Source of the DNA: a candidate division WOR-3 bacterium
GTDB lineage: Bacteria > Hydrothermota > Tepidihabitantia > Tepidihabitantales > Tepidihabitantaceae
Length of the DNA: 38,547 bases
Direction: 5' to 3'
NCBI GenBank assembly: GCA_016867815.1
Contig: VGIR01000021.1
Span: forward strand, 1-38,547
Positions 9,401-38,547 of this stretch are shown here, piece after piece. Under the pieces are notes generated by a model. It searched no databases and had not been told where the DNA came from. It saw only the letters and a program-made list of their open reading frames with translations. Numbering within the stretch: the first letter of the stretch is position 1; each line of letters opens with the position of its first letter. The position numbers and the translations under genes are program-made.

Positions 9401-9874
9401 GGTGTCCGCGACCCGGCCGGCGGTTGGCTGCAGGACGGATGACTCGCGGCCCGCGACCGGTGGCCGGTGCAGACGATACTCCTGCGGCATACCGGGAAGC
9501 CGCACGCAGCGGTAGACGACCCGAATCGGGACCCACTTCTCAGGCTTGCGCCAGAAGACGATGGAGCCGGTGCCGTAGTCGAACTTGTAGTCTGTCGAGT
9601 CAAGACGGGCGCCTGAGACATAGACTGCGTCCGTGCCCAGGACGAGAAACTGTCCATCAGGGGCAGATGAGTCCGGAACGACCTCAAGCGGATAGACGAA
9701 ACTGATACCGTCGCTGACGATCAGCGTCTGGCAAGGAACACCGATTGGCTCGGTCAGGGCGACTGAGACGAACAAGAACAGGGCGGCGAACGAACGCTTC
9801 AAGTCCAGCGGTCTATTCTGCCAATCGCCAATCGCAAATTGTCGTAGCTGACCTCCGCACGAGCAATGCAACAC
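6482..9874 (-). CDS. Very large putative outer-membrane beta-barrel protein
   Basis: 1,130 residues. A hydrophobic signal segment (about 28-46) precedes a beta-rich protein full of alternating aromatic/polar strands, with repeated short motifs such as GDY, YRY and RVGW. The last residue is Phe in a strand (HTLSAELKAYF), the usual signal for barrel assembly. A segment near 205-230 (SSPIPAEGTTRDIEEL) resembles uncharacterised surface proteins of FCB-type bacteria. The start is uncertain. GTG 9874 has a GGAGG-type site supplied by the palindromic element upstream but gives a 26-residue positively charged lead before the hydrophobic core; TTG 9802 would give a conventional signal peptide. That lead and a linker near 9000 (SRGLGSGSPLS) are encoded by tandem 7/8-nt arrays. 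Function unknown. Confidence 0.8.
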   Translation of the reverse strand: MLHCSCGGQLRQFAIGDWQNRPLDLKRSFAALFLFVSVALTEPIGVPCQTLIVSDGISFVYPLEVVPDSSAPDGQFLVLGTDAVYVSGARLDSTDYKFDYGTGSIVFWRKPEKWVPIRVVYRCVRLPGMPQEYRLHRPPVAGRESSVLQPTAGRVADTASPTVGPTALDLSGSKTLGVSVGGANAGIDQATRVAITGSFEGIAVEAELSDQSSPIPAEGTTRDIEELDKLLISLRGRQWHGSFGDVNLLVPVGGFGTIERKAIGASAGWGEVQAGTRIQGVTDSRGLGSGSPLSLTGTAAASPAIPDPSTPSFGVFGGYATPKGLFGRVEMAGVDGSQGPYVLAPDGRAALIVPGSEQVYLNGRRMVRGWDADYTIDYSTGELLFTNRRVIDRLARIEATFHYVTGDYSRSLLAGAARLGFGQRELVGVPGTGASLDFGVFREGDDPSSSFTEDLSPADRESLAAIGADTGRAWLDGATYAGPGQGDYIKVGDHFEYVGRDSGDYQVRFTLVGDSLGDYRYSDTILAYRYAGAGLGNYVAMRRIALPERSEAAYARVGFKQSGFTAGVEGLVQRRSLNLFAPGGAQVDAGALNLDAGWQDSSYGILYRHRLQDRRFEAPGASPEVDFAYRWGGTAENKRRSSDEVSLRARPAAFLSLSGEAGRLDRFEGGPVYRYHGGVQAGWLGYDITRVADITRQSVLATPRVGWLYPKAGWQSVVNARDMSSVLIAGLEAKPITALTAGVDYRHSCFYEPDTVIRAWQRTSLARLLEARADWTGGTAFQLGAMAGLNDRRFDAGSGENWSQLLASLNGTATPRAGLRLQADFNQSYRKVQLRDELFRYVGRGEGEFRRDSVSGRYYADPDGDYERVVVATGRFTQAREWSLNGSGDVSMFDPAALSGSFSQTRTSTDSSVLTDLSRQDLRLVVKSFEPVLTPTLGASSEFGVDLNLAATGRASSRQQAYVEMFSDRLPEVEGRARFEAERARRRLSGGEIDYDEAGWRVEFSPVVGSRLRIEAELGYERKSVAETVSYPELGRFALWAFDASFARTFSFGSRTRVRTSLQVVHRAATIPVLPFDVGLIEPLGTIPGAGLSFEHSFSNVLSASARYSFQDRPDRPSEHTLSAELKAYF

Positions 9875-14230: not shown

Positions 14231-14252
14231 GTTCGCTCCAGCCTGAATTGCT

Positions 14253-14360
14253 GGTGACCAAATCCCCATGACCAATCAAAGCCGAATGACCCCATGCCCA
14301 CTTCGGCGTCCTCCTCTTTGGTCCATGATTGGGAATTGGCAATTGGACATTGGTCACTCC
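14253..14360. repeat. Facing 7-nt arrays between efp and accC
   Basis: The left half holds TGACCAA/ATGACC-type words. The right half (14328-14355) holds four contiguous 7-nt units with consensus ATTGGNN. The right half reads as an approximate reverse complement of the left. It is the only sequence between efp and accC, and no promoter or ribosome binding site was recognised there. Confidence 0.7.
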
Positions 14361-18309: not shown

Positions 18310-19218
18310 ATGGCAGTAACGCTTGGTCGCATCTTCCGACGCACGCTGCCGGATCCCGGTGTCGACCCGGTTCCTTTCGGCCCCCGCTACTCCATCTCCG
18401 GTGATCGGCTGGCCATCGAATCCGGTCCGCTCGCCGGCACCGCACTGCGAGTTGAGCGCCGCGTCTCGCACACCAAAGCCGACTTCAGCTTCTACGAGCT
18501 TGCCGGCGACAGTTCACCGATCGCCAATCGTCAATCGCCTGTTTCTCCTGACCCGGTGGCACACTGTCACTTTGACCGCGACCCGCAGACCGGCATCGAA
18601 ACCCTCTGGAGCATCTTCATCCGATCTGAGTATCGCCGTCGCGGCTTGACGACGCTTCTGACCAGGCTCACCTTCCGCGGGCTGCTGGCTACCGGTCGGC
18701 GCCACTGGTTTTCCATTCGCAAGCTGATGCAGGTAGACACGGAAGGCCGGAACCAGATGCCGCCTCCCGGTAGTCCGCGGCCCGAAGGCCCGCAGCTGCA
18801 GCGGATTGCACTTCACAATCTGGGGTTGGGGCTGGTCGCTCTTCGGCTCGGCTTCAAACCGGAGCCTGACCTCGCGCGCCTGCTGGCTCCTGGCAACGTC
18901 GACGCCATACAGGCAATCCCGCCCGACCCACCGAGCCCACCCGGCTTGCTGCTGCGCCTCGGGACCCTCCCCGGTCTGCTGGTCGCGGCAATGGTCGACC
19001 CGAAATCCGGTCAGCCGGTCACTGACGCGAGTGCCTACGAGCGATTCGTCAGCCCGAAGCAGCTGCTCCGGCAGGCGCTGTCCGGTCACGCGGTCATCGG
19101 CAATATCGACTACATCCTCTCGCGCACCGCGATCGAGCCGCTCGCCGCCCGTCTGGCAAACGACCACGCCGAACTCCGACATTTCGCCGCTGCCCTTCGC
19201 CGGGGTGCCCCGAACTGA
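18310..19218 (+). CDS. GNAT-fold acetyltransferase-like protein
   Basis: 302 residues. Residues about 85-140 carry a GNAT core: an acidic beta strand (GIETLWSIFIRSEY) followed by motif A RRRGLTTLL, the acetyl-CoA pyrophosphate loop (R-R-x-G-x-T type). The C-terminal half has no recognised family. An 11-residue linker before the core (SPIANRQSPVS) is encoded by a three-unit 7-nt repeat array (18518-18538). The stop overlaps the next ATG (TGATG), as in the following pair, so three genes are translationally coupled. The substrate is unknown. Confidence 0.65.
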   Translation: MAVTLGRIFRRTLPDPGVDPVPFGPRYSISGDRLAIESGPLAGTALRVERRVSHTKADFSFYELAGDSSPIANRQSPVSPDPVAHCHFDRDPQTGIETLWSIFIRSEYRRRGLTTLLTRLTFRGLLATGRRHWFSIRKLMQVDTEGRNQMPPPGSPRPEGPQLQRIALHNLGLGLVALRLGFKPEPDLARLLAPGNVDAIQAIPPDPPSPPGLLLRLGTLPGLLVAAMVDPKSGQPVTDASAYERFVSPKQLLRQALSGHAVIGNIDYILSRTAIEPLAARLANDHAELRHFAAALRRGAPN

Positions 19219-24310: not shown

Positions 24311-24318
24311 CCATTTCG

Positions 24319-24466
24319 CAGTTTGCAGTCTGCAGTTCCGAATTCGCACTTCTGCCTTCTCGATTCTGCATTCTGACTTCTGCCTTGATCCGCACACTCT
24401 ATCCCTCTGTCCCTTTATCCCTGTCCGGCCCAAACCCTTGAGCCCCAGGACCCCCGAACCCCTGGC
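24319..24466 (+). repeat. Three successive tandem arrays (7, 8 and 8 nt)
   Basis: 24319-24388: ten contiguous 7-nt units without indel, starting CAGTTTG, CAGTCTG and drifting to a NNNTTCT consensus. 24400-24423: three 8-nt units of the TATCCCTN type. 24435-24466: four 8-nt units starting with CCCC or CCCT. The last array contains the TTG start of archease (24438) and encodes its first residues. This is the richest example of the repeat class in the window. Confidence 0.85.
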
Positions 24467-28485: not shown

Positions 28486-29937
28486 ATGCTGCCCCTACTT
28501 CTCTTCTCCCTCCTCTCTATGTACCGTTCGGAGAACTGGCAGGTCTTTCCATCAATGGACGAAATCCGCTGCATCTCGAGCACCGGATCGGAAGTATACG
28601 TGGCGGTACCGGCCGGCGTCTGCGTCCTCGGCCGCCCCCGCTACGGCCTTGTTCGAACCCTGAACTCGGCTGATGGCATAGCGGGCGAAGTCCAGCTCTG
28701 CGCCCACAACCCTTCGCGCGGCGACGTCTTCATCACTACCGATGAGCACATCTATCGCTTCATCCCATCCACGGCCAGGGTCGAAGAACTCGCCGCGCCT
28801 TTCAAGACAGTTTCGTCCATCGGCATCGCCGACAGCGGTGCCTTCTTCGAAACCGATGCCGGGCTCTTCTTCCGTGCCCGCAGCGCCGTCGAATTCGCGG
28901 CCACGGCCGAGTTGCCACCCGACTTGCTCTGGTATGGCGGAAGAGACACAATCGAGCCGCGTGACTTCCCGTTCCTCTCCCCCTACTTCGTCATGGACGA
29001 ACAACTCCTCAACCATCCGGTTACCCTCGTACGACCAGACAAAGGCAACAAGCGCCTTTTTGCCGCGGCTCAGGGTTACGGTATTCTCGTCTACAACCTC
29101 CGCACCGGATTCAGCGAGTCGCACATCCGCTTCGGCCCGTCCCGGACCGCGGTCCGGCGCATCGCCCGGCTCGACAACCGGCTCTGGCTGGTCGGCGGCG
29201 AGACCGCGGTCGCGCTTGACTCAGCCGGCAACTGGAACTACTTCCTGACTCGGCCCGGCGACCTCTCGACCGGTGGGTTCCGGCTCCTGTTCGGCAACGT
29301 CACCAACCTCGATCGGAGCGAAGGCCTGAGTGCCTTGCTCGCCGACTCGGCCGGCCTGCTGCTCGGCACCAACTACGGCATCTACTCCCTCGGCTCGGAC
29401 AACAAGCTGGCACAACTGCTCAGCCTTCCCCGGCGGGTCAGCGGCCTGCTGAGGATAGGCGACTCCCTCCTGTTTGGCACCGAGCAGGGCCTGTTCCTTG
29501 CGACCGGGGACAGCGTCGTCGGATACGGCGACCCGTACGGTGAGACCGACTGGGGCGTCTTCGACATCACGCGGGCGGCCAATGGCACCGCCTATTTCGG
29601 CACGCTCGGCGGCGTCGTCTCGCGCACCGCTGACGGCCGCTGGTTCCGCTACGTCCCGCCCGGCTTCGACCTGAAGCAGCCGGTGTCCGCACTCGCCGCT
29701 GCCGGCACCCGCGTCTTCATGGCCACCCCGTCACTCCCCAACCCCTCGCCCTTCGCCACTCGCCCCTCCTCCGCAATCACCGTCCTCGACACGAAGGACA
29801 ACTCCTGGACCACGATTGACGCAACCCGTGGCCTTCCCGTCTCGGAAATCAACTCCCTCTACGCCGACGACCGCTACCTGTGGATTGCCTCGCCCCGCGT
29901 GGTCGTCCGGTTGGACTACACCCGGGAACTACGCTAG
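28486..29937 (+). CDS. Exported beta-propeller protein
   Basis: 483 residues. A short hydrophobic N terminus (MLPLLLFSLLSMY) suggests export, though the charged n-region is missing and the cleavage site is unclear. The rest is propeller blades of about 40-45 residues, with motifs like GSEVYVAVPAGVCVLGR, GLLLGTNYGIYSLG, DSLLFGTEQGLFLATGD and AYFGTLGGVVSRTADGRW, similar to two-component-regulator propellers. No sorting domain at the C terminus. A Pro/Ser-rich linker (SLPNPSPFATRPSS) is encoded by 7-nt repeat units (about 29745-29772). Starts 6 nt after nnr, so likely the same operon. Function unknown. Confidence 0.72.
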   Translation: MLPLLLFSLLSMYRSENWQVFPSMDEIRCISSTGSEVYVAVPAGVCVLGRPRYGLVRTLNSADGIAGEVQLCAHNPSRGDVFITTDEHIYRFIPSTARVEELAAPFKTVSSIGIADSGAFFETDAGLFFRARSAVEFAATAELPPDLLWYGGRDTIEPRDFPFLSPYFVMDEQLLNHPVTLVRPDKGNKRLFAAAQGYGILVYNLRTGFSESHIRFGPSRTAVRRIARLDNRLWLVGGETAVALDSAGNWNYFLTRPGDLSTGGFRLLFGNVTNLDRSEGLSALLADSAGLLLGTNYGIYSLGSDNKLAQLLSLPRRVSGLLRIGDSLLFGTEQGLFLATGDSVVGYGDPYGETDWGVFDITRAANGTAYFGTLGGVVSRTADGRWFRYVPPGFDLKQPVSALAAAGTRVFMATPSLPNPSPFATRPSSAITVLDTKDNSWTTIDATRGLPVSEINSLYADDRYLWIASPRVVVRLDYTRELR

Positions 29938-31834: not shown

Positions 31835-32827
31835 CTATTCGGTCAGGACGACCTTGGTGACGCCTGACGCGCGATTGGCGACGCCCGTTTCCGGACGCAG
31901 GAAGTACACTCCCGGCTTCGGGTTCGCCACCCTCCGCCCCATGGCGTCGAAGAGGACCTTGGACGATAGACTCTGGGCTCTCGACGCCGACATGATTGAC
32001 GGCCCACGGTTCGGCGCTCGGACTTCGGCGTTCGGCGTTTCCGCGACCCCGCCGGAACTACTGTGGACCATGACCATGATGTCATCAGCCGCCGTGAAGT
32101 TCGCACTCGTGTCACCTTCCATGCTGTGCGTCATCGCGGCCATGCCCACATCCTTGGTCAACCAGTAGTACCGTCGTGTAACCGAGGTATCGACGCCGAC
32201 CGGTACGCCACTAACGTAAGTTGTCGTGATCACGATTCCGACCCAGTTCTGCCGCAGGCAATCGTAGCTGCCGGCCGGGGTCACGACCGTGCCCCAGGCG
32301 TCTATCGTACAGCGCCGCGAGGTCGCGACAACGTGAATCGTGTCGGCCGCCGTATCGGTAGTGTTGAAATCGGTCTGCCACGAACTATTGTAGGTGGCGG
32401 GGAAATCAACGTTGATCGCCGGCGGAACGTTCACCCGCACCATCGAACCGCCGCCGAAATCGGCGGCGAATCCGCACTCCAGCAGGCTTCCCGTGTCGAG
32501 CTTGTTAAACACGTACAGCGTGTACGTCCCCCGCGGCTCCCGCGTGGCGATGTTCGCGTCCGGGAAGCGGGCGGCGAACGGCGTGCTCTCCTTGCTCACG
32601 TAAGTCATGGTAAGCACGTACCCGACGTAGGATGAGGTGTCGAACGTCCAGGTGTGCGGGCCGCCCGGCGAGCCGTTGTCCACGGTATCGTCGTGCGCCA
32701 GGTACTTGTACTTGCTGGAATCGCCGATGGTCTGGGGAACGTCACCGGCTGTGATCGTTATCTGGGCGCTGGCCACTCCCGCGAGCAGGCAGCACCCGAC
32801 GGCAAGAACCAAACGTACTGCTGACAT
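31835..32827 (-). CDS. Secreted protein with sorting-type C terminus
   Basis: 330 residues. The signal peptide is about 1-21 (LVLAVGCCLLAGVASA). The body (22-250) is a beta-rich domain with no recognised family; similar sequences usually carry conserved Trp/Tyr-rich strands as here (HTWTFDTSSYVGYVLTMTY). The last 45 residues are a short sorting-type domain (VLFDAMGRRVANPKPGVYFL). AAAGGAGG just upstream supports the ATG. Two 7-nt arrays are within the gene: 32009-32042 encodes the linker ETPNAEVRAPN, and 31859-31886 encodes part of the tail (VANRASGV). Confidence 0.8.
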   Translation of the reverse strand: MSAVRLVLAVGCCLLAGVASAQITITAGDVPQTIGDSSKYKYLAHDDTVDNGSPGGPHTWTFDTSSYVGYVLTMTYVSKESTPFAARFPDANIATREPRGTYTLYVFNKLDTGSLLECGFAADFGGGSMVRVNVPPAINVDFPATYNSSWQTDFNTTDTAADTIHVVATSRRCTIDAWGTVVTPAGSYDCLRQNWVGIVITTTYVSGVPVGVDTSVTRRYYWLTKDVGMAAMTHSMEGDTSANFTAADDIMVMVHSSSGGVAETPNAEVRAPNRGPSIMSASRAQSLSSKVLFDAMGRRVANPKPGVYFLRPETGVANRASGVTKVVLTE

Positions 32828-32845
32828 CGGACCTCCTTTGGCTGG

Positions 32846-32873
32846 ATTTTCTTCATACGGCTCTACGTGTCAA
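32846..32873 (-). promoter_or_regulatory. Possible promoter of the secreted protein gene
   Basis: Minus strand: perfect -35 TTGACA (32873-32868), 16-nt spacer, weak -10 GAAAAT (32851-32846), about 19 nt before the ATG. The AAAGGAGG site lies between. Confidence 0.4.
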
Positions 32874-32980
32874 GCGTGGCGCGTCCGGCGGTCAAAAGGG
32901 CCCGCGGCGGATGGGTGCCGCCCCGGTCTGATTTCGCTCAAGTCCTGCTGCGTGTTCTCTGCTGCCGCTCCCCTCTTGCC

Positions 32981-34126
32981 CTAGTTTGTCACTATGACCT
33001 TGGTCGGACGCGGTGAGCTTGACGCACTGCGGTTCACGCCGGACTTCACTCGCACAAAGTAGACACCGGGCTTGGGGTTCGTTGCCCTGCGCCCCACGGC
33101 ATCATAAAGGACGCTCGACGCAAGAAGCCTGAGGCTGGACGTACCGGACAGAACCGTCGGGCCAGCATTCGGCGTTCGGAGTTCGGCGTTCGGCGTTTCC
33201 TCGACTCCCAGTCCGGTCGTGTACCAGATGTCGTTGTGGTTCGTGCCGTCGTACCCGCCGCAGAGCCACAGTTTCCCGTCATAGTCCGTCAGCGGGAACC
33301 GGTAACGGGCGGACCAGGGCGCGGTCGCTGCCGCCTGGGTCCAGTTGACGCCGTCGGTTGAGTACCACGCATCGTTCAACATGGTGTTGAAGTTGTACCC
33401 GCCGATGAGCCAGAGCTTGCCGTCGAAGGCCACGGTTGCATGGGCGTTGCGACCCAGCCAGGGCGCGGACGCGGTTGCCTGAGTCCAGTTCGTGCCGTCG
33501 GCCGTGTACCAGACATCGGTCAGATACTCGCCGCCGCTGATGACCCAGAGTTTGTTGTCGAAGACAACCGGTGCCGGATACCGGCGAGCCGACCACGGCG
33601 CTGCCGCAGTCACCTGGCCCCACGTCGTACCGTCGGTCGATGACCAGATGTCATTCAGGTCGGTAGGCCCCGTGGTCTGGCCACCCATGACCCACAGCTT
33701 GTTGTCGAACGCCGCTCTGCCGTACCAGCGCCTCCAGGTCCACGGTGTGGAGTCGGCGGCCTTTGTCCAGGTCGTGCCGTCGGACGAGTACCAGACGTCG
33801 GTCAACTCGCTGCCGGCATTGGTGCCGCCGATGACCCAGAGCTTGCCGTTCAGCACCAGCACCTTGTGTGGCGCGCGACCCGGAAACGCCGAGTCGGCAG
33901 CGCACGTCCACGCCGCCCCGTCGGTCGAATACCATACGTCAGGGTCACCCAGGTGCCCATGCTGCATGTCCTGCCCGCCGATAACCCAGAGCTTGCCGCC
34001 AAAGGCGGCTGCCCCGAGGTCGCCCCGCGGTGACCAGCCGGCGGAATCGGTCGCCTCGGTCCACGTCATCTGGGCAATCGCCGTGCTCAACAGCACGGCC
34101 AGTGTCACAAACACGGTTCTTTTCAT
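32981..34126 (-). CDS. Secreted kelch-repeat protein with sorting-type C terminus
   Basis: 381 residues from ATG 34126, set by AGGAGG just upstream; the frame runs further back but without a better start. Signal peptide about 1-19 (TVFVTLAVLLSTAIA). Six kelch-like repeats of about 50 residues follow (pattern APWSARRYPAPVVFDNKLWV, then GG...DVWYTADGTNWTQA), forming a predicted six-blade propeller. The C terminus is a short sorting-type domain (VLYDAVGRRATNPKPGVYFV). The linker between them (ETPNAELRTPNAGP) is encoded by a five-unit 7-nt array (33166-33200). Probably surface-exposed; ligand unknown. A promoter lies far upstream at 34519-34548. Confidence 0.85.
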   Translation of the reverse strand: MKRTVFVTLAVLLSTAIAQMTWTEATDSAGWSPRGDLGAAAFGGKLWVIGGQDMQHGHLGDPDVWYSTDGAAWTCAADSAFPGRAPHKVLVLNGKLWVIGGTNAGSELTDVWYSSDGTTWTKAADSTPWTWRRWYGRAAFDNKLWVMGGQTTGPTDLNDIWSSTDGTTWGQVTAAAPWSARRYPAPVVFDNKLWVISGGEYLTDVWYTADGTNWTQATASAPWLGRNAHATVAFDGKLWLIGGYNFNTMLNDAWYSTDGVNWTQAAATAPWSARYRFPLTDYDGKLWLCGGYDGTNHNDIWYTTGLGVEETPNAELRTPNAGPTVLSGTSSLRLLASSVLYDAVGRRATNPKPGVYFVRVKSGVNRSASSSPRPTKVIVTN

Positions 34127-34241
34127 CCTGCCTCCTGATTCTGTTGCAGCCACCTCTACGTTCGCCGTGCGCCACTCGATTCCGCCCCGTGCGCTGAGGA
34201 GTCTGTCAGACGACAGCAGCACACGCCCGGGCGCAGGTCAG

Positions 34242-34421
34242 TCACCCGCATCCGGACGAGATCCCTACTTGGATTGTCTGCTGGCAAACGGAACAATCAG
34301 GCCGCTTTTCACCCGCCCGCGGTTTCGGCGGCGCCCGGCGGGAGGTCTTTCCGACCGCGGGTCTCCGGCGCGCACACGGCCCTTTTGTGCGGATGCCCAT
34401 TGCGGGCACCCTGTGATTCAA
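34242..34421 (-). CDS. Possible 59-residue basic small protein
   Basis: The ORF starts at TTG 34421 behind a strong AAGGAGG site and ends at TGA 34242. It begins MNHRVPAMGIRTKG, is very rich in Arg, Lys and Pro, and has three Cys near the end. No family recognised. It lies within the 390-nt leader of the kelch gene and overlaps GC-rich hairpins (34301-34391), so it may be a leader ORF, a fragment of a dispersed element, or chance. Confidence 0.3.
   Translation of the reverse strand: MNHRVPAMGIRTKGPCARRRPAVGKTSRRAPPKPRAGEKRPDCSVCQQTIQVGISSGCG
34301..34391 (-). other. Cluster of stable hairpins in a long leader
   Basis: Within the gene-free stretch 34127-34603, nested inverted repeats lie together: CGCACA/TGTGCG (34371-34376 with 34386-34391), GGTC/GACC with a 5-nt loop (34344-34356), an outer stem GCGCCCGG/CCGGCGC (34331-34371) and GCCGC/GCGGC (34301-34332). 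Read on the minus strand this could be a structured RNA in the leader of the kelch gene. I recognise no known riboswitch. Confidence 0.3.
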
Positions 34422-34518
34422 GACTCCTCCTTACTGCGACCACATCCGGTTCTCCACCAAAGCGAACCGGGCAGGCGGAACTGCGGAAGGCACTCCTTCC
34501 GACCCCCTATTCGGCGTT

Positions 34519-34548
34519 ATGTTAGCGCTGTAGAGACATCGCTGTCAA
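34519..34548 (-). promoter_or_regulatory. Promoter upstream of the kelch gene
   Basis: Minus strand: perfect -35 TTGACA (34548-34543), 18-nt spacer, -10 TAACAT (34524-34519). It would give a leader of about 385 nt to ATG 34126. Confidence 0.45.
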
Positions 34549-34603
34549 GTTATGCCGGGGCCATCCCTGCCGCGCCGGGCCGGCGCAGACTGCTGGCTAC
34601 CGA

Positions 34604-35686
34604 CTATCGCGTTACTACGATCTTGTAACAGCTTGCGGCTGACAGCTCACGGCTTTCGGCCCGGACGAAGTAGACACCGGGTACAATCGCCCGCACGTCA
34701 TTCGCGCCGGGCTTCAGGTCCAGCACCTTCCGGCCGGTCGCGTCCATCAAGCTTGTGGCTTGAGGCTTGTGGCTGGCAGCTCCCGGCAGGAACAGCACCC
34801 CGCGGATGACTGTCGGTGCCGCGTTCATCGTTCCACGCTCATCGTCCATCGTTTCCTCAATCCCGCCGCCCGAATCGCGCAGGACTGAGATCGTGGAATT
34901 CCCCTCATTGGAGACATAGACCCGGTTCTGCACCGGGTTGTAGCAGACGTCCCAGGGCCCGTCGTTGTCGGGGATGTAGCGCAACAGCGAATCGCCTGCC
35001 GCGTCGATGACGGCCACATCGTAGGCGTTGCTCGCGCAGTACACCTTGTCGTTCAACGAATCGTAGCAGAGACGGCGCGCGGTAAACCCCTCAATGCGCG
35101 CAACGACCTGGTTCGACCCGCCGTCTACGACGGTAACGCCGTTGTGGGCTGAGCCAACGTACACCTTGTTGCGCCTTGGGCTGTAGCAGAGTGACGCCGA
35201 GAACACCCCGGCACTATCGATGGCTATGACATCGTCGGTTGTACCGTCGATGACCATCACGTTGCAGCCATAGTAATCTCCGCAGTACACCTTGTTCGCC
35301 TGAGGGTTGTAGCAGATGGCTCCGGCATTGGGTGTGAGCAGGTGTTTGAGGTCCCGTCCGGTCGCGCCGTCCAGCACAAAGGTGCGGCTGCCGTATTCGC
35401 CGCCAAGCCAGTAGACCTTGTTGACTTGCGGGGCGTAGCACGCGGGGTAGTCCCTTAGACTCCGGGTAGGAGTACGTGCTATCAACCGGTCTGAAAAGCC
35501 GTCCACGATCGCGACGCCGCTATCGCAGCCGATGAAGAGGAAGTTGTTGCCCGTATTGTAGACCATGGTACCCGGTATCCCGAGTGCCGATAGCGAATCA
35601 GGCAGGACTATGGTCTTCTCGACCCACTGGCCGGGAGCAACCGAAACGATGCAGGCAATGAACAGAAGAACAGCAACCAGTTTCAC
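34604..35686 (-). CDS. Secreted YVTN-type beta-propeller with sorting-type C terminus
   Basis: 360 residues. GTG 35686 is preceded by GGAGGGAG. Signal peptide about 1-19 (VLLFIACIVSVAPG), then WVEKTIVLPDSLSA. Seven or so blades of 40-43 residues with the pattern CYNPQANKVYCGDYYGCNVMVIDG form a YVTN/NHL-like propeller. The C terminus is the sorting-type domain with RGVLFLPGAAS, DATGRKVLDLKPGANDVR and VPGVYFVR. Three 7-nt arrays are in frame: 34822-34856 (encoding ETMDDERGTMN), 34751-34785 (SHKPQATSL) and 34631-34658 (ESRELSAAS). It starts 9 nt after the stop of its paralogue, so the three propeller genes form one operon. Confidence 0.85.
   Translation of the reverse strand: MKLVAVLLFIACIVSVAPGQWVEKTIVLPDSLSALGIPGTMVYNTGNNFLFIGCDSGVAIVDGFSDRLIARTPTRSLRDYPACYAPQVNKVYWLGGEYGSRTFVLDGATGRDLKHLLTPNAGAICYNPQANKVYCGDYYGCNVMVIDGTTDDVIAIDSAGVFSASLCYSPRRNKVYVGSAHNGVTVVDGGSNQVVARIEGFTARRLCYDSLNDKVYCASNAYDVAVIDAAGDSLLRYIPDNDGPWDVCYNPVQNRVYVSNEGNSTISVLRDSGGGIEETMDDERGTMNAAPTVIRGVLFLPGAASHKPQATSLMDATGRKVLDLKPGANDVRAIVPGVYFVRAESRELSAASCYKIVVTR
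34688..35049 (-). repeat. Direct repeat copy 1 (shared with 38186-38547)
   Basis: 362 nt aligned at a constant offset of 3,498 with the right end of the window, with about 14 mismatches and no indel. The last 130 nt are identical. It covers the last blades and the sorting domain of the YVTN gene at 34604. Confidence 0.9.
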
Positions 35687-35695
35687 GTCTCCCTC

Positions 35696-38089
35696 CTACC
35701 TTGTGATAACGATCTTGCGGACCGCTTGCGGCTTGGGGCTTGGAGCTTGCGGCTCCTCGCGAACAAAGTAGACTCCGGGAGCCAGCGCCCGCACGTCATT
35801 CGCGCCCGGATGAAGATCCAGCACCCTCCGGCCGGTCGCATCCATCAAGCTTGCGGCCTGAGGCTTGCGGCTTGAAGCTCCATCCAGGAACAGCACCCCA
35901 CGAACAACGGTGGGCGTGGTTCGGATCTGCTGGAACGCCGACCCGCCGTCGATGCCGGCGAGCGAGGTGTCACGGACCACAAGGATCGCCTGCCCATTCT
36001 GATCGACCACGTACATCTTGCGGTATCGAGAAACCCACGTGATGTCTCCCGGCGACTGGCCAGCTTCAAGGAGGCCAAGGAACCGATTGGCGCGACCATC
36101 AACGAGCGATATACAACCGTACTCCGGGCTCGTCACCCACATGCGGTTCGCGACCGAGTCGAAAGACATGTCGTTCGGCCTGGCAGCAAGCCGAATCCTG
36201 GCATCGATGCTCATGTCCCGGCAGTCTATCACTGCGAGTTCGTCAGAGCCCGCCAGAAGGCAGTAGAGCTTATTGGCGGCGCGGTCCAGTCGAAACTGCG
36301 ATACACCGCCCAATGGAATGGTCTGGACCAGTTGTCTTGCCTTGCCGTCGACCACGACAAGGTTCGCGCCCGGCGCCTCGCAGACGACGACGTCCCTAGA
36401 CGGAACGTAGCACATATCCATCGGGCCGCCGTAATAGCCGGAGCCGATAGAGACGACTCCGATCACCGAATCAGTCGCGCAGTCGATCGCGCTGACGTAC
36501 AACGAATCGGCGCGGAATTCCGACACACAATAGACTCGGTTCGAGTCCGGGTTACAGGCCAGGGCGCATGGGTCTTGCCTGACCCACACTTCGCGGACGA
36601 TGCTGTCGCCCGCGCAATCGATCACGACCACGGTCGACTCGCCCAGGTTGCCGGCCCAGTAGATGCGATCCATCACCGGATTGTAGACGATGGCGGGCGT
36701 GGCATCGAAGTACAACGGCAGCGCTGCCACAAGGCTGTCGGACGAGCAATCGACAGCCAGCAGCGCGGAACCGTTGCCCTGCCACGCGCCATAGTAGAGC
36801 TTATTCGAGCCCGAACTGTAGACGGGTGAGCGCAGTCTCGACGCCGGGGTGAAGATCCTCCCCTGCAAGCTGTCCGTTGAGCAGTTGATGACGGCAATCA
36901 GCCCGCTCTCGTCGTCGCTTACATAGAGCTTGTCATAAGGCTCGACGTAGCATCCCAGTCGCGGCCGGGCGTTCATCTGGATGGCTGATACAACGTCCAG
37001 GCCTGCTGCGTCTACCACGTAGACATCCTCTGAAGACCTACCGACGAGGTAGAGACGGTTCTGCTGCGGGTCGTAGCAGGCCGGGTCTGGCTCATACGCA
37101 TCGCCATGGAATTCGACCCATCCTATTATGGAATCGCCGCTGCAAGATATGGCTGGGATGGAATTGTAGTAATCGGAGAAGCAGAAGACACGGTTGTCGA
37201 CCGAATCGAAAATGAAGAACATCGGATCGTAGTCGACCGGGCCGAGCGAGGCGAGAATTGTGTCGGTGTAGCAGTCGATGATGTGGATATAGCCGTAACC
37301 GTCACCGCAGTAGAGCTTGTTCGAAACCGGACTGTAACCCAAGGCGACCGGGTGTTCCTGTATGCCGATCAGTCTCAGCAGCGTGTCTGGGCCGGCGTCA
37401 AAGACCGCAACCTCGTCATCAGAGGAAGCGGTGCAGTACAGCTTGTTGCCAACCGGGCTATAGGCCAGAGACGTCGGATAGTCGCCGACGTCCAGGTACT
37501 TGAGCAGGCTGTCGCCGGCGCCGTCTATCACGGCAACCGTGCCCTCGTCATCGGACGGAACGTAGACCTTGTTTCCGACCGGATTGCAGCAGACCGTGCC
37601 GAAGTCGTAGTCAGTGCGGCCCACCCAGATGCGGGCAAGGACCGAATCGGTGCTACAATCGACCACGACTACCGTATCGCGCCTGGAACCCGTGAGGCAG
37701 TACACCTTGTTCGCCGCCGGGTTGTAGCCGAGCCGGGTCGGGTTGCTGCCGACGTGTAGCCGGGCGAGAACCTGGTGCGTCATCGGATCGATGACTGACA
37801 GCGACTCGCGACCGGACATATACACCTTGTTGTCATGCGAGTCGAAGGCCATGAACAACGGCTCGTCCAGGTCTATCCGCGCCACCCGGGCGTTGGTCGC
37901 AGCGTCGACGACAATGACGCCATCGTCTTCGTCCGCGACGTACACGCAATTGCTGCCTGGTACATAGTAGATGGCCTGCGGCCATATGCTGCCGAACGAG
38001 TCCGACAGCCCGATGGTCTTCTCCAGCCACTGACCGCCGGCCGCTGACAGGCAGCAGCAGACGGCCACCAACGTGCAGTCAATTCTCAT
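35696..38089 (-). CDS. Large secreted YVTN-type propeller protein, sorting-type C terminus
   Basis: 797 residues. ATG 38089 has GGAGG 4 nt upstream. Signal peptide about 1-19 (LVAVCCCLSAAGG), then WLEKTIGLSDSF as in the paralogue. About sixteen blades of 40-43 residues (pattern GYNPAANKVYCL, then VVVVDCSTDSVLARI) imply two propellers in tandem. Cys recurs in the VDC and VYC positions of many blades. The sorting-type domain has RGVLFLDGASS, DATGRRVLDLHPGANDVR and APGVYFVR. 7-nt arrays at 35849-35883 (SSRKPQAASL) and 35724-35758 (EEPQAPSPKPQA) flank that domain. Probably exported and surface-located. Middle gene of a three-paralogue operon with 9-nt gaps. Confidence 0.85.
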   Translation of the reverse strand: MRIDCTLVAVCCCLSAAGGQWLEKTIGLSDSFGSIWPQAIYYVPGSNCVYVADEDDGVIVVDAATNARVARIDLDEPLFMAFDSHDNKVYMSGRESLSVIDPMTHQVLARLHVGSNPTRLGYNPAANKVYCLTGSRRDTVVVVDCSTDSVLARIWVGRTDYDFGTVCCNPVGNKVYVPSDDEGTVAVIDGAGDSLLKYLDVGDYPTSLAYSPVGNKLYCTASSDDEVAVFDAGPDTLLRLIGIQEHPVALGYSPVSNKLYCGDGYGYIHIIDCYTDTILASLGPVDYDPMFFIFDSVDNRVFCFSDYYNSIPAISCSGDSIIGWVEFHGDAYEPDPACYDPQQNRLYLVGRSSEDVYVVDAAGLDVVSAIQMNARPRLGCYVEPYDKLYVSDDESGLIAVINCSTDSLQGRIFTPASRLRSPVYSSGSNKLYYGAWQGNGSALLAVDCSSDSLVAALPLYFDATPAIVYNPVMDRIYWAGNLGESTVVVIDCAGDSIVREVWVRQDPCALACNPDSNRVYCVSEFRADSLYVSAIDCATDSVIGVVSIGSGYYGGPMDMCYVPSRDVVVCEAPGANLVVVDGKARQLVQTIPLGGVSQFRLDRAANKLYCLLAGSDELAVIDCRDMSIDARIRLAARPNDMSFDSVANRMWVTSPEYGCISLVDGRANRFLGLLEAGQSPGDITWVSRYRKMYVVDQNGQAILVVRDTSLAGIDGGSAFQQIRTTPTVVRGVLFLDGASSRKPQAASLMDATGRRVLDLHPGANDVRALAPGVYFVREEPQAPSPKPQAVRKIVITR

Positions 38090-38098
38090 AGGACCTCC

Positions 38099-38547
38099 CT
38101 ACCTTGTGACAACGACCTTGGTGACGGAAGACGCATCACGCCCTACGCCAGACGCCCGACGCAGGAAAAACACCCCCGGCGCCAGCGCCCGCACGTCATT
38201 CGCGCCAGGCTTCAGATCCAGCACCTTGCGGCCGGTCGCGTCCATCAAGCTTGTGGCTTGGGGCTTCCGGCTTGCAGCTCCCGGCAGGAACAGCACCCCA
38301 CGGATGACTGTCGGTGCCGCGTTCATCGTTCCACGTTCATCGTCCATCGTTTCCTCAATCCCCCCGCCTGAATCGCGCAGAACCGAGATCGTGGAATTCC
38401 CCTCATTGGAGACATAGACTCGGTTCTGCACCGGGTTGTAGCAGACGTCCCAGGGCCCGTCGTTGTCGGGGATGTAGCGCAACAGCGAATCGCCTGCCGC
38501 GTCGATGACGGCCACATCGTAGGCGTTGCTCGCGCAGTACACCTTGT
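38099..38547 (-). CDS. YVTN-type propeller protein, 3' part (cut by window edge)
   Basis: The last 148 codons of a gene that enters from the right; its start is outside. It encodes the final blades (YCASNAYDVAVIDAAG) and the sorting-type domain (DATGRKVLDLKPGANDVRA, APGVFFLR, VTKVVVTR). It is almost identical to the 360-residue paralogue at 34604 until the last 20 residues. 7-nt arrays are at 38320-38354, 38249-38283 and 38133-38166. It ends 9 nt before ATG 38089, so it leads the operon. Confidence 0.88.
   Translation of the reverse strand, partial: KVYCASNAYDVAVIDAAGDSLLRYIPDNDGPWDVCYNPVQNRVYVSNEGNSTISVLRDSGGGIEETMDDERGTMNAAPTVIRGVLFLPGAASRKPQATSLMDATGRKVLDLKPGANDVRALAPGVFFLRRASGVGRDASSVTKVVVTR
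38186..38547 (-). repeat. Direct repeat copy 2 (shared with 34688-35049)
   Basis: Second copy of the 362-nt repeat described at 34688. It continues to the window edge, so the true length is unknown. Five of the mismatches fall within the 35-nt array 38249-38283. Confidence 0.9.

Follow-up and report, generated by a model that had tools for sequence, protein, structure and literature searches.

The window analysed here, a stretch of DNA of 38,547 nucleotides, corresponds to a complete contig (C21) from a MAG of 3.37 Mb in 215 contigs, and its AccC protein is 83-85% identical to the closest named records, those of candidate division WOR-3 bacteria. Towards its end lie five genes for proteins with a C-terminal sorting domain, which raise the question of what produces the short arrays of seven-nucleotide units inside their reading frames and why these are found around that domain. 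An earlier note had placed such arrays on both sides of the domain in all five proteins and read them either as hot spots where sorting domains are exchanged between passenger genes or as tolerated insertions like the palindromic elements of Rickettsia genes.

The arrays are real. Using a strict criterion (at least 16 of 21 matches at lag 7), eight islands were detected at lag 7 in the 6.5 kb that hold the five genes and none at lags 4-6 or 8-13, whereas a 4th-order Markov simulation of chance expects 0.025. The proteins and their arrays are as follows.

31835-32827, 32981-34222, 34604-35686, 35696-38089 and 38099-38545, all minus strand: the five sorting-domain proteins, the last of them incomplete because the contig stops at 38547
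32011-32039, minus strand: site 1 (linker) array of protein 31835-32827, unit CGAACGC, peptide ETPNAEVRAPN
33162-33201, minus strand: site 1 (linker) array of protein 32981-34222, unit CGAACGC, peptide EETPNAELRTPNAG
34628-34654, minus strand: protein 34604-35686, last hairpin loop; weak array, probably decayed, that encodes ESRELSAAS and falls short of the strict lag-7 threshold
34747-34781, minus strand: site 2 loop array of protein 34604-35686, unit CAAGCCN, peptide GAASHKPQATSLM
34822-34852 (limits approximate), minus strand: site 1 linker array of protein 34604-35686, unit ACGATGA, peptide TMDDERGTMNA, just below the strict threshold
35720-35755, minus strand: site 3 hairpin-loop array of protein 35696-38089 (model residues 86-98), unit CAAGCCN, peptide EPQAPSPKPQAVR
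35852-35879, minus strand: site 2 hairpin-loop array of protein 35696-38089 (model residues 44-54), unit CAAGCCN, peptide GASSRKPQAAS
38138-38166, minus strand: site 3 array of protein 38099-38545, unit GCGTCNG, peptide FLRRASGVGRD
38248-38279, minus strand: site 2 array of protein 38099-38545, unit CAAGCCN, peptide GAASRKPQATSL
38320-38350, minus strand: site 1 array of protein 38099-38545, unit ACGATGA, peptide TMDDERGTMNA

By alignment, the array at 34822-34852 is homologous to that at 38320-38350, and the array at 38138-38166 stands in place of different sequence in the paralogue 34604. The site-3 loops of proteins 31835 and 32981 gave no pass at the strict lag-7 threshold. Regarding the units, each array had been thought to be of a different type, but TPNAELR and TPNAEVR are both encoded by CGAACGC, and SHKPQA, SRKPQA and EPQAPSPKPQA all by CAAGCCN; MDDERGTMN is encoded by ACGATGA and the last loop of 38099 by GCGTCNG. 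The array proposed for ESRELSAAS is weak, being detected by TRF at a period of 14 only, with 1.9 copies. The encoded peptides had also been described as not looking repetitive; they do repeat every 7 residues (21 nt), most arrays being shorter than two such periods. Further heptamer arrays, both intergenic and genic, were seen in the window at 24318-24386, 199-218, 9820-9839, 18520-18539 and 29741-29769 (e.g., SPIANRQSP and PNPSPFATRPSS).

The domain that these arrays surround was modelled for the protein at 35696.

35699-36010, minus strand: C-terminal sorting domain and linker of protein 35696-38089 (last 104 aa), modelled as a T9SS type A sorting domain

The AlphaFold model has a mean pLDDT of 64 (mostly about 70-85 in the domain itself), and its best folds in the PDB were T9SS sorting domains, namely the NucA CTD 8glk_D (E 4.6e-3, probability 1.00) followed by the RgpB CTD 7pq4. 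At a model pLDDT of only 64, the domain is predicted to have an Ig-like fold that matches the solved T9SS CTDs. With the Por_Secre_tail profile, the five window proteins scored below the curated cut-off or gave no match, and the genome yielded 135 places at E <= 1, over 30 of them above the cut-off; the heptamer arrays probably contribute to the poor sorting-domain model scores in this lineage. Of the T9SS machine, the genome encodes SprA (429.8 bits, cut-off 200) and a PorU-like protein (358 bits, below the cut-off of 420). All 64 sorting-domain arrays sit at one of three sites. Site 1 is the linker that precedes the domain, and the other two are loops: site 2 lies between strand 1 (VRGVLFLP) and LLDATGRKVLDL, and site 3 between GVYFVR and KVVVTR. 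In the model, residues 44-54 form the loop between strands 39-42 and 53-56, and residues 86-98 lie between strands 79-85 and 97-102. The site-2 spacing was 14 residues in 15 of the 17 measurable array-bearing domains, whatever the unit, in a small and partly related set of copies. CAAGCCN arrays of other species also fall in CTDs (3 of 13 independent loci).

Genome-wide counts cover 2.46 Mb of the 3.37 Mb MAG and depend modestly on a simple home-made gene finder (1,934 genes, 85% coding) and on a home-made sorting-domain profile derived from PF18962 matches (219 proteins). At 17/21 matches, lag 7 gave 382 islands, lag 8 119 and lag 6 64; periods of 5, 9, 10, 11 and 13 gave 3, 17, 8, 1 and 0, respectively. 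The 5th to 95th percentile of array length was 28-49 nt. Sorting-domain genes had 38.0 array bases per 1000 in their last 270 nt and 0.82 in their bodies, compared with 3.9 and 5.3, respectively, in other genes. The arrays are dispersed and denser in spacers (18.7 per 1000) than in coding DNA (about 5 per 1000), and only the sorting-domain tails exceed the spacers.

The enrichment near sorting-domain junctions on which the earlier note relied is strong throughout the genome: in genes of at least 900 nt, sorting-domain tails had 105.8 arrays per 100 kb and the bodies belonging to them 2.1 (p = 7e-37), as against 9.9 in the last 270 nt and 13.6 in the bodies of genes without the domain. The tails are about 50 times denser in arrays than the bodies of the same proteins, and about 25 times once copies are collapsed, which reduces the 64 sorting-domain arrays to 30 clusters and the tail density to 51.6 per 100 kb (p = 5e-31 against their own bodies, 1.7e-9 against other gene bodies). 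Raised lag-7 and lag-14 identity was also seen in tails that carry no flagged array, which fits decayed arrays. Arrays are scarcer in passenger bodies than in ordinary genes (2.1 versus 13.6 per 100 kb, p = 6e-9), and tolerance alone fails to account for this.

With their tandem 7-bp period, few copies and imperfect match, the arrays qualify as degenerate heptameric repeats. Instead of one or a few unit sequences per genome, they show at least 15 unit families, with some 171 canonical consensus units, AATCTGC being a recurrent family (31 arrays). A unit grammar (TTC[TG]G-like) is common across arrays (2.29 versus 1.63 in the shuffled control, sd 0.015), and unrelated arrays have unit order in common (228 pairs at >=26/28 versus 78 in shuffles). 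The end units are stereotyped, several intergenic arrays have flanks and end motifs in common, and in mosaic arrays the unit drifts along the length of the array. In the peptides encoded by arrays, S, Q, P, K and R are frequent, whereas Y, W, F and V are scarce. A fixed variable position occurs in some families (CAAGCCN) and was rejected as a property of every unit, the within-array mismatch concentration being 0.377 versus 0.365 at random. The arrays were likewise rejected as contingency-locus SSRs of phase variation, which are near-perfect and frame-shifting, the arrays being imperfect and constant in length at site 2.

Genes without a sorting domain also carry arrays, 222 of them in 155 genes, and these are clustered (18 genes with three or more, 2 expected). 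The hosts include MutS, Mfd, a UvrD-like helicase, TopA, MetRS, a MiaB-like protein, the CCA enzyme, LarA, MetH and KorA; MutS, TopA, Mfd, MetRS, MetH and others hold several arrays each, of differing units. Several of the array-rich genes serve DNA repair or metabolism (MutS, Mfd, UvrD-like, TopA), and weakened mismatch repair might feed the generation of arrays. One of these genes is that for MutS.

L125:8074-11046 (contig C53 of G000): MutS gene with about six array-like inserts, one immediately before the P-loop

Compared with E. coli MutS, array insertions stand at residues 388-421, 637-668 (just before the P-loop) and 776-811; the further inserts are also heptamer-like, two of them being inverted pairs by eye and one folding significantly. 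The MutS open frame comprises 949-997 aa in the five other members of the genus and 860-924 in most other genera of the order (960 in G015). The TopA arrays coincide with the N-terminal extension and with gaps (loops) in the alignment to solved TopA. Arrays separate domains in four further proteins (MiaB-like, CCA enzyme, MetRS and a radical-SAM protein), and the KorA array lies at the gamma/alpha junction. A few arrays also encode the hydrophobic cores of predicted signal peptides in g396 (C15:10776), g235 (C60:3502) and g454 (C1:109262) (e.g., LAVGLLTANCLLLTANFVLA and SFFALLSSLFSLFLLGGC), and likewise near 1500 in loci L180 and L189.

The likening of the arrays to tolerated insertions has largely stood, being borne out by the insertions relative to E. 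coli MutS and topoisomerase I, in linkers and loops. The palindromic side of the comparison applies to some intergenic and genic copies and fails for the sorting-domain arrays, for which a hairpin or terminator role was rejected at folding z-scores of about 0 (-1.2 to +1.1). Rickettsia palindromic elements are repeats tolerated in frame inside genes, and the WOR-3 arrays resemble them in such insertion. They differ in their 7-nt unit, the lack of a single element sequence and the unpalindromic sorting-domain arrays, a hairpin body being present only in a minority elsewhere.

Within intergenic DNA, 15% of arrays have an inverted partner within 120 bp (3.9% of controls), so pairing between arrays was rejected as a general rule for them. 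Hairpin z-scores reached -5.8 at C1:119317 and -4.3 in a MutS insert. Downstream of the 3' end of a groEL-like gene (L036:4806-4925), a normal GC hairpin has inverted heptamer arrays on both sides, giving a very long stem (z -10). An inverted pair is also present in the window.

14240-14360, no strand assigned: spacer between the EF-P gene and accC with an inverted array pair (GACCAAT ... ATTGGNN), z -2.1

Placement as promoters or terminators was rejected, the spacers showing no strong preference (per 1000, 12.6 in divergent, 19.9 in codirectional and 20.4 in convergent ones). On contigs C8, C123, C37, C1, C27 and C64 of G000, some intergenic CAAGCCN/CAATCTG arrays lie inside longer dispersed repeats with common flanks (cgtagcccg... 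and ...aatgcctcgtgggagct).

CAAGCCN triplets were found at 8-30 per genome in all six genomes of the genus and in none of 55 others, whereas TTCTGNN arrays occur in the genus and also have a patchy distribution outside it (17 of 147 genomes of the phylum). A reversed control pattern also matched in G131, G134, G135, G144 and G146, which belong to other families of the phylum, and suggests that these have other heptamer units. The EF-P/accC spacer holds an array in all five genus species compared, with differing units that partly form inverted pairs. An orthologous signal peptide is encoded by CAAGCCN in G003 and by CAATCTG in G000. Over the few loci compared within the genus, most sites retain an array while its unit changes and a few vary by presence or absence; one MetRS array is conserved. 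Among paralogues, arrays of the same type diverge by 14% and the core by 15%; constant hypermutability is thus not seen, and fast mutation within arrays was rejected. Some pairs with cores 80-84% identical carry unrelated arrays of equal length, so that switching looks discrete rather than gradual, on few independent events.

These direct observations (the period, the enrichment genome-wide and in sorting domains, the three sites, the housekeeping insertions, the retention of sites with unit switching, and presence/absence) are probably, with moderate confidence, to be explained by a lineage-specific process in which slippage and copying between arrays generate heptamer arrays and selection filters for those in frame in permissive loops. 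An ongoing, genome-wide process would make and replace short imperfect heptanucleotide arrays (about 4-7 units, 28-49 nt), many of them intergenic, some as inverted pairs forming hairpins, and many inside genes. Purifying selection would retain genic arrays that are stop-free and in frame and lie in linkers between domains, in surface loops or in some signal peptides. Three permissive segments, the linker and two beta-hairpin loops, are offered by the T9SS-type sorting domain, which is also copied as DNA among some 220 genes, so that arrays would accumulate there far more than elsewhere. The selective filter is well supported; the generator would be replication slippage in steps of some 7 nt together with copying between arrays, and retention would be due to tolerance rather than to a function of the loop. 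The 6-7-8 period spectrum and the mosaic drift of units speak for slippage, and heptamer excess has been suggested to reflect the DNA segment held by the polymerase (PMC4692102). Purely local slippage poorly explains the recurrent families, the common grammar and unit order, and the stereotyped ends, which favour copying; some common flanks also speak against it.

Against this account stands the first reading of the earlier note, that the arrays are recombination hot spots which swap sorting domains between passenger genes. Exchange or duplication of the domain is itself real, since 149 tail-only DNA matches (>=80% identity) join genes with different passengers, and the conserved core is flanked by array-bearing loops. 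However, the breakpoint check went against the arrays: match boundaries fall at them no oftener than at random tail positions (starts 19.3% versus 18.8% expected, ends 21.6% versus 19.3%, with power limited by short tails and decayed arrays), the homology of paralogues 34604 and 38099 breaks inside the conserved GANDVRA block, before PGVYF and upstream of the array, and arrays abound in genes without sorting domains, which makes such hot spots highly improbable. An origin from mobile palindromic elements (like REP, ERIC or Rickettsia palindromic elements) that would insert with defined ends, also in frame into genes, and whose arms or remnants the arrays would be, one-armed in sorting domains, has in its favour the inverted partners, the strong hairpins at the groEL-like 3' end, C1:119317 and the MutS insert, the common flanks and end motifs and the unit order shared above shuffles. 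It is nevertheless rather unlikely: most arrays and every folded sorting-domain array are without an inverted partner, the many families and units amount to no single element sequence, and no transposase and no empty site with target duplication were found.

The arrays could instead be functional, either diversifying the loops of sorting domains purposefully or offering the TTC[TG]G-like grammar as a binding site. The grammar itself, the fixed site-2 length for any unit, the sorting-domain excess even above intergenic DNA and the depleted passenger bodies agree with this, but arrays in spacers of all orientations and in unrelated housekeeping genes, the loss of unit identity at orthologous sites and the failure to identify a candidate reader or writer protein render it improbable. 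It is very improbable that a dedicated DNA-writing or cassette-copying process lays heptamer arrays with interchangeable units and stereotyped ends and rewrites the loops of the secretion tag at fixed length; if true, it would diversify the loops of some 220 secreted proteins. In so fragmented a MAG, low complexity arising by chance or an artefact of assembly might be suspected, but the simulation for the 6.5 kb and the recurrence of arrays in six independent genus genomes, and in one case in the chromosome record of another WOR-3 bacterium (L195), refute it.

Comparable repeats are known. The STRR of filamentous cyanobacteria are tandem, 7-bp based, dispersed and hairpin-capable, of unknown function, and were described in intergenic and promoter regions (PMC2670836); the WOR-3 arrays share the dispersed 7-bp tandem repeats and possible hairpins and differ in having at least 15 unit families and in-frame copies in housekeeping and sorting-domain genes. 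The GGGNATC and GGGGAYT heptamers of Xanthomonas and Nostoc are degenerate, dispersed, mostly of four units and usually placed between the same genes in two related species with varying length and sequence (PMC4692102). The likeness extends to degenerate few-unit heptamers and to spacers retained with changed sequence (few loci in WOR-3), but there one G-quadruplex-forming family is involved, whereas WOR-3 has many units, unit switching per site and strong use in genes. The TAACTGA direct repeats of Beggiatoaceae, with 2-6 heptamer copies at many loci, translate into 7-residue repeats (PMC4679880), as few-copy arrays at many loci do here; they consist of one exact unit, lie mostly upstream of start codons and are rare in ORFs. 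Borg tandem repeats also occur in both ORFs and spacers; they evolve fast and encode disordered segments, often of extracellular proteins, and their in-ORF units are multiples of 3 and almost always error-free (PMC9879509), unlike the highly imperfect units of 7 in WOR-3. Degenerate heptamer repeats are thus already known, and what appears to be new here is the number of unit families and the heavy in-frame use in protein loops.

An excess of heptamers in bacteria has been noted and polymerase slippage proposed for it, though it has received little study (PMC4692102). This genus shows the excess at an extreme level, with many units, core DNA-metabolism genes hit and units that switch at conserved sites, and this level, the many units and the switching make the generator testable by comparing a few genomes. 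What emerges resembles a process of rapid repeat turnover, with protein structure as its filter, more than a device for swapping domains, and its arrays form a natural insertion scan of the loops that tolerate foreign sequence.
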